64,000 nt of DNA, from the NCBI GenBank assembly GCA_002730035.1, contig PBYU01000068.1, positions 1-64,000 of the forward strand, in the 5' to 3' direction. The notes under the pieces were generated by a model. That model worked only from the letters and a program-made list of their open reading frames with translations, had not been told where the DNA came from and searched no databases. Shown one piece after another: positions 43,553 to 45,055 of this stretch. The DNA comes from Gammaproteobacteria bacterium. GTDB taxonomy: Bacteria > Pseudomonadota > Gammaproteobacteria > Pseudomonadales > Pseudohongiellaceae. The number at the start of each line of letters is the position of its first letter. Positions within the stretch are counted from its first letter, which is position 1. Made by a program: the position numbers and the translations under genes.

Positions 43553-43580
43553 TTGACTTCAAAATTAATAGGCATACAAT
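43553..43580 (+). promoter_or_regulatory. Sigma70-like promoter
   Basis: TTGACT (43553-43558), 16-bp spacer, TACAAT (43575-43580). Confidence 0.6.
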
Positions 43581-43612
43581 CCGCGCATCCAAAATTTTAT
43601 TGTGCGGGGAAA

Positions 43613-43717
43613 ATGAACACTTACAGCTTTCTAACAATCATGCCGACGACTATGTCCTTTCTAGGTCATCAGTTTTGCGTACGCGTGATTAATAATTGGG
43701 AGACCTACTTGGAGTGA
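43613..43717 (+). CDS. Candidate 34-aa small protein or leader peptide
   Basis: MNTYSFLTIMPTTMSFLGHQFCVRVINNWETYLE* lies between a promoter-like sequence and a strong terminator. Confidence 0.35.
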   Translation: MNTYSFLTIMPTTMSFLGHQFCVRVINNWETYLE

Positions 43718-43753
43718 TTTCTGAACCCTAAACGATTAGTAACCGTTTTAAAG

Positions 43754-43794
43754 AAAAGACCTCTAAGTCGCAACGCCTAGAGGTCTTTTTTTTT
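43754..43794 (+). terminator. Rho-independent terminator
   Basis: AAAAGACCTCTA ... TAGAGGTCTTTTTTTTT. Confidence 0.9.
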
Positions 43795-43847
43795 GCTCCT
43801 AATTTAATGTAATACCCGCATAAGTATGTGGGTACTGGGGGACTATT

Positions 43848-45055
43848 GTGCTTAAAAAAAATAAATTGCACAGAAACATAACCGTAATCTATGGCCTGGC
43901 ATTCTTTCACTGCTTCATGGTTATCGTACCGGTCATCGTGCCTTTCTTTATGTCGAAGGGACTGAGCCTTGCGGAATTTTTTACCTGCAGGCGGTCTTCG
44001 CGACCACTATAGTGTTACTCGAGGCACCTTCCGGTTATTTTGCAGATATTTTCGGTCGCCGATTCGCTCTCATTATTAGTAGCGTATTTCTTGGCTTCGC
44101 CTACTTCTTGCTGAATTTTGCAAACGACATGGCCAGCCTGATGGTGTTTGAAATAACCGCCGGTGTCGCCATTAGCCTTATTTCCGGAGCGGACATTGCG
44201 CTCTTGTATGACACACAGAAAGCGCTGCAAGAAGATACCCACTCCGAATCCGCAAAGGGTATCGCCCAGCTTGGCTTTATAAAGAGCCTGGCCGAAGCGC
44301 TCGGCGCCCTTGTCGGTGGTGTGCTGGCACTGTGGTCGTTCGATTTAATGGTCTTGATCCAGTCCGCTGTGGCATGGGTTTGCCTGCTGCTGGCCTTGTT
44401 GGTAGTCGAACCTCCCTACAAGAAAGCAGGAGCAGCGGAATCGCGTCTGCAAATCACCGAGATTCTCAAGCATCTGTTGGTACGAGATCCGGTACTCAGA
44501 CGAGTGGTGCTGGCAATTCCATTGTACAGCCTGGCCACCTTCCATGTTGCCTGGCTGGTGCAGCCCTATTGGGAATCACAAGGGCTATCCCTGGCGGTGT
44601 TCGGAATTCTCTGGTGTGCCCAGAGTCTGACTGTCGCACTGGCTAATAAGTTCGGTTTCGAAATCGAGCGACGCTTCGGTGCCAGTACGTTGCTGGTCTT
44701 GATCGGCACCTTACCGATCCTGGGCCATTTCGGTATGGCCTGGTTCCAGGGCTGGACCGGCATCGTTATCGGGCTCTTATTGTTCGTCTGCCGGGGGCTG
44801 AACCAGGTAATCCTGGTCAATGCCCTGAACAGACGAGTTCCGAGTGAGTTTCGGGCAACTGCTAACTCATTCACCAGCTTCCTGTTTCGGCTGGCATTTA
44901 TCACAACCGGGCCGCTGGTTGGATACGTGGCCCAGACACAGGGTCTGGTTACTGCATTGAATCTATTGGGTATCTCATCCATCACCTTATTCGTGGTGGT
45001 GATGATTCCACTGATTCAATCCGTGAAGGCAATTCAGCGACATGTGGTCGCATAA
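43848..45055 (+). pseudogene. MFS transporter with apparent 1-nt frameshift in a T6 tract
   Basis: GTG start at 43848 (VLKKNKLHRNITVIYGLAFFHCFMVIVPVIVPFFMSKGLSLAEFF); one extra T in the tract at 43977-43982 would continue as YLQAVFATTIVLLEAPSGYFADIFGRR into ORF 44012-45055. Confidence 0.75.

Follow-up and report, generated by a model that had tools for sequence, protein, structure and literature searches.

The window, a stretch of 64,000 nucleotides from contig PBYU01000068.1 of a gammaproteobacterium, carries a short transcription element between two transporter genes, in the order SBF/PanS-like transporter, element, MFS transporter, glnK and amtB. A preliminary description of the sequence had proposed that the element consists of a sigma70-like promoter, a 34-aa ORF and a strong terminator, and all three were borne out. 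The promoter is formed by TTGACT (43553–43558) and TACAAT (43575–43580) separated by a 16 bp spacer, the ORF runs exactly as described from ATG at 43613 to TGA at 43717, and the terminator consists of an inverted repeat (43750–43765 with 43778–43793, 94% complementary) with a T9 run at 43786–43794. The element and the gene that follows it comprise the following features:

43553–43580, + strand: sigma70-type promoter, assigned from sequence and conserved in 38 copies, for the leader and, via read-through, the MFS gene
43587, + strand: approximate transcription start, estimated from the spacing to the –10 box
43613–43717, + strand: leader peptide ORF of 34 codons, with a C-terminus conserved within the genus
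43649–43673, + strand: hairpin within the ORF (core 43653–43657 with 43664–43668)
43707–43722, + strand: predicted antiterminator 5' arm, made up of the last codons, the stop codon and the first post-stop bases
43752–43768, + strand: predicted antiterminator 3' arm, overlapping the 5' arm of the terminator
43750–43794, + strand: intrinsic terminator with a loop of 12 nt and the T9 run
43814–43833, + strand: small hairpin (ACCCGC...GTGGGT) immediately ahead of the MFS start region, which contains GGGGG
43848–45055, + strand: MFS transporter gene with a GTG start and a one-base deletion near 43975–43982 relative to homologues

The promoter match by itself is close to what chance would give, with 3 promoter-like sites in the window alone against 3.2 expected, and a simple terminator scan missed the hairpin because the loop exceeds the 8 nt allowed. 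The element is lifted above chance by its conservation across congeneric copies. A single copy is present in its own genome, and blastn located copies in about 38 congeneric genomes. Among 38 aligned copies TTGAC is 97–100% conserved, positions 1, 2, 4, 5 and 6 of the –10 box are 92–100% conserved and most positions of the terminator stem reach 95–100%, while conservation upstream of the promoter is mostly 35–55%. Both structure and reading frame, the two properties on whose conservation in relatives the preliminary description had staked the unit, are clearly retained. The leader RNA gave a folding z-score of –2.9, and relatives carry short inverted repeats similar to the 43814–43833 hairpin. 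A promoter scan found no promoter-like site on the + strand between the terminator and the MFS start. No Rfam family was matched at the gathering score, and a permissive threshold returned sub-threshold hairpin matches only.

The leader ORF is open in 35 of the 38 copies, and its lengths among the open copies differ by multiples of three. A longer ORF of 65 aa from GTG 43520 was rejected because the start codon of aligned copies, ATG or GTG, lies at 43613 and the preceding sequence is variable. Parsimony assigned 121 synonymous, 219 non-synonymous and 8 stop-affecting changes to the ORF, compared with 94, 241 and 14 expected from random placement; 121 synonymous changes were reached in none of 300 replicates, and the synonymous share was lower in the other five frames. 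This pattern of substitution indicates that the leader ORF is selected as a reading frame. The C-terminal half of the peptide (GHQFCxRVVKNWETCLE) is more conserved and the N-terminal half is variable, the peptide is barely recognisable from genus to genus, and a Pfam search with the ORF returned no family. The contrast between the three codon positions is weak (0.80, 0.79 and 0.76), and RNA constraints therefore probably act on the ORF as well. Threonine accounts for 15% of residues in leaders of the genus versus 6.8% in nucleotide shuffles, and is 2.1-fold enriched in the leaders of more distant relatives described below. Cysteine is present in 35 of 35 genus leaders and 23 of 24 distant ones. 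The threonine codons are scattered, and no run of regulatory codons was found in the leaders.

A conserved hairpin also lies within the ORF at 43649–43673 (TGACC...GGTCA), with a compensatory change in one copy (L064). Its core has a mean pair probability of 0.65–0.8 with weak covariation, and it may be a polymerase pause signal, a role that is a guess.

Ensemble folding of all copies gave two alternative structures for the terminator 5' arm. When the 3' arm of the terminator is left out, 43761–43768 is predicted to pair with 43707–43714 at a mean probability of 0.55–0.75, and an extension of this antiterminator (43718–43722 with 43752–43756) at 0.51–0.59. Once the 3' arm is present the terminator prevails, with core pairs near 1. 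Across an alignment that included other genera, and with kinship ignored, 94.7% of antiterminator cells were paired with two-sided changes at 3 pairs, and sliding the partners against one another lowered pairing to 72% or less. In the same alignment terminator cells were 98.8% paired, with two-sided changes at 2 pairs. In 7 copies the antiterminator contains a C-A mismatch, which arose through replacement of TTG by the synonymous codon CTG. Covariation within the genus alone was uninformative because the stem is nearly invariant, and it was the other genera that helped; the near-invariance of the terminator arm may itself reflect a need to match two partners. As judged from folding and alignment, the antiterminator and the terminator are mutually exclusive, conserved pairings. 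A conserved protector hairpin over the antiterminator arm was not found.

The preliminary description regarded the unit as an orphan unrelated to either neighbour, which proved wrong for the downstream gene. An orthologous MFS gene, defined by about 60% identity or more and counted whole or in pieces, is present in 31 of 84 congeneric genomes, and the element is present in all 31, directly upstream of the MFS gene at every locus read. It was undetectable by blastn in 46 of the 53 congeneric genomes without an orthologous MFS gene; in the other seven, four loci no longer have the MFS gene, two retain remnants of it and one is at a contig end. A covariance model, which is more sensitive, added degenerate leaders adjoining MFS remnants in two genomes (G128 and G130). 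Weak matches of the model at G126:C3, G087:C27 and G109:C101 were discounted, being located away from MFS genes and resembling ordinary terminators. Some of the 84 genomes additionally carry paralogues of the MFS protein, at an identity of about 30%.

The MFS gene seems to have been lost repeatedly in the genus, being broken or lost at 13 congeneric loci besides the one-base deletion in the window. Loci at which the orthologous gene is broken or partly deleted are L103, L104, L105, L106, L107, L108, L109, L115 and L117. Decay of the leader was scored as deviations at positions with 85% or greater conservation among intact loci, comparing loci where the MFS gene is broken or lost with intact ones and ignoring kinship. 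The leader deviates more where the MFS gene is broken or lost, in the promoter (p = 0.0006), the ORF (p = 0.0018) and the terminator (p = 0.0015); neither the post-stop stretch (p = 0.12) nor the linker (p = 0.056) differed significantly. The adjoining SBF protein showed no excess deviation at these loci (p = 0.58), and general divergence is therefore not the cause of leader decay. One genome scored as intact (G090) carries a stop codon and may be broken, in which case the test would be conservative. The three leader ORFs that are broken (L064, L069 and L071) all belong to loci where the MFS gene is broken or lost. Decay of the leader together with the MFS gene supports an action in cis on that gene and argues against a free-standing sRNA or small protein.

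Within the window the leader is intact, and the deletion divides the MFS gene into 43848–44012 and 44012–45055; at 43973–43985 the gene has GGAATTTTTTACC, and relatives have GGAAATTTTTTA(T/C)C. The frameshift may represent a pseudogene or an assembly error. Comparison of the MFS protein with NCBIfam gave only weak matches, to the HP1165 and Tet efflux families, that fell far short of the cut-offs, and a sequence search of solved structures gave no match. The leader, MFS gene, glnK and amtB are also present on a contig titled Klebsiella pneumoniae (L035) that resembles environmental MAGs, and the record appears to be misnamed.

Promoter, short ORF and intrinsic terminator, in the same orientation and upstream of the gene to be controlled, are the parts expected of an attenuator, and the element is very probably a leader-peptide transcription attenuator of the MFS transporter gene. 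An attenuator-like leader was the third option given in the preliminary description and is strongly supported. For its other two options there was no sign of a trans-acting sRNA or of a free-standing small protein, the ORF being real as a leader peptide. From sequence comparison and folding we infer that the leader is transcribed, translated and switched in the cell.

In attenuators of the trp/thr type, the terminator is favoured when the ribosome has reached the stop codon of the leader and the antiterminator when it has stalled, and the same ribosome-position logic is proposed for the leader here. Polymerase would start near 43587 and make the leader. Translation of the ORF to its end would place the ribosome footprint (codon 29 to stop) over 43707–43722 and block the antiterminator, whereupon the 43750–43794 hairpin would form and transcription would end, releasing an RNA of about 205 nt. 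If a ribosome stalled at codons 1–27, owing to a translation inhibitor, an arrest-inducing ligand or a missing charged tRNA, or if translation did not initiate, 43707–43722 would be available to pair with 43752–43768. The antiterminator so formed would pre-empt the terminator, and polymerase would continue into the transporter gene. Folding masked with an assumed ribosome footprint left the antiterminator free with the P-site at codons 1–27 (0.67–0.87) and with no ribosome (0.77), and abolished it from codon 29 to the stop, the position of this switch point being set by the footprint assumed. The inducer is plausibly, if with considerable doubt, a ribosome-slowing or ribosome-stalling compound that the transporter handles.

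The main alternative to such a compound as the signal is limitation for an amino acid, threonine and perhaps cysteine, as in the thr operon. The leaders are rich in threonine, nearly all contain cysteine, and ribosomes stalling at threonine codons would free the antiterminator. Nevertheless this signal is unlikely, given that starvation attenuators are marked by consecutive codons for the amino acid that regulates them, which the leaders lack, and that the controlled gene is an MFS transporter weakly similar to efflux families rather than a biosynthetic operon.

Other explanations would separate the element from control of the MFS gene. The strong promoter and terminator, the near-invariant stem, the compact size and the persistence of the element at four loci without an MFS gene would suit a trans-acting sRNA of about 205 nt, its ORF incidental or dual-function and its place before the MFS gene a product of chance or history. 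This is improbable, since apart from those four loci and one contig end the element is found only before MFS genes or their remnants, decays upon MFS loss, contains an ORF under frame selection and belongs to no Rfam family, and the invariance of the stem could be accounted for by its two alternative partners. A small-protein gene that stands alone, ends in a terminator of its own and has no connection to the MFS gene would agree with selection on the frame and with the C-terminus conserved within the genus, but is highly improbable in view of the variable N-terminal half, a peptide that hardly carries over between genera, decay alongside the MFS gene, overlap of the stop codon by the antiterminator and the lack of a Pfam family. 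That the hairpin is merely the terminator of the upstream SBF gene, which lies on the same strand, combined with an unrelated promoter, is scarcely credible: the leader is retained where SBF is degraded or absent (L048/G124), other genera have it behind a different upstream gene, and the promoter and ORF between SBF and the terminator are conserved.

Leaders built on the same plan from different sequences also stand ahead of diverged MFS homologues in other genera and families of the order. Each of the 32 distant leaders examined, a set that omits two loci with no readable leader (L086 and L090), has a strong hairpin with a T run behind it, and about half of the 32 contain the strict TTGA-N-TA promoter pattern. 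Nearly all have an ORF of about 30–80 codons whose end coincides with, or lies close to, the segment of highest complementarity to the terminator arm, an overlap that is descriptive only because the ORFs were picked near that segment. Complementarity exceeded that of shuffled sequences (combined p = 6e-9 with kinship ignored; 8 of 32 individually below 0.05), with the best complementary segment of L089 and L093 lying elsewhere. Some leaders make the same pairing from unrelated sequence, for example AGGAGGCU with AGCCUCCU at L034. A class-wide search with a distant MFS protein matched only the gene of the window itself at E ≤ 1e-45.

Four leaders of one family (L091, L092, L100 and L101) have GAGAACC in the region of the terminator loop and, just past the terminator, a complementary GGTTCTC-like motif; the two could pair, perhaps acting on translation of the MFS gene. 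An attenuator-like leader with a small ORF and a CTCTAAG-type terminator arm also precedes a different gene at L147:344-429, a weak match to the model (E 1.7e-4).

For transporter and resistance genes, leader-peptide attenuators have been described chiefly in Gram-positive bacteria and in a few enterobacterial or Pseudomonas cases; mdtJI of E. coli, compared below, encodes an SMR-type exporter. The leader here differs from the trp/thr type in having no regulatory codon run, in that no conserved protector hairpin over the antiterminator arm was found and in controlling a transporter gene. A literature search, with most subscription journals outside its scope, found no earlier description of the leader. 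In PA5471.1-armZ of Pseudomonas aeruginosa, complete translation leads to the terminator and deletion of the leader raises ArmZ (PMC13041342). The two systems share a leader peptide, terminator and antiterminator segments and a link to efflux, and the model proposed here would share termination after complete translation and expression upon stalling or loss of the leader. The PA5471.1 leader controls an anti-repressor of MexXY (PMC13041342), whereas the leader here directly precedes the MFS gene. The 34-codon peptide is unrelated in sequence, and in place of the Q3 F4 leader followed by armZ that characterizes that family, the window has a leader starting MNTY followed by an MFS gene.

Similar in layout is mef(E)L-mef(E)/mel of streptococci, in which a leader ORF, an intrinsic terminator and an anti-attenuator stand directly before an MFS efflux gene (PMC4335068). 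It differs in belonging to Gram-positive mobile elements, in its 8-residue peptide and macrolide inducer, and in the position of the anti-attenuator arm, which lies just past the leader ORF and becomes available once another stem has been opened by a stalled ribosome (PMC4335068). The mdtU-mdtJI system, also gammaproteobacterial, likewise places an exporter under the control of a conserved uORF whose C-terminus is conserved, but uses Rho-dependent termination and a spermidine signal (PMC7815308).

The case shows that a short terminator-bounded unit adjoining a gene deserves a test for leader function before the label sRNA is applied. The leader recurs in many environmental genomes of one order, linked to a single transporter family. 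Tentatively, it may belong to an old, undescribed attenuator family that acts through the nascent peptide, accompanies one MFS family across the order and senses a ribosome-arresting compound handled by the transporter. The peptides of such a family would have become almost unrecognisable, its design, with the antiterminator arm at the ORF end opposite the terminator arm, being kept. Because inducer and substrate are often linked in such systems, identifying what stalls the leader ribosome would indicate the cargo of the transporter.
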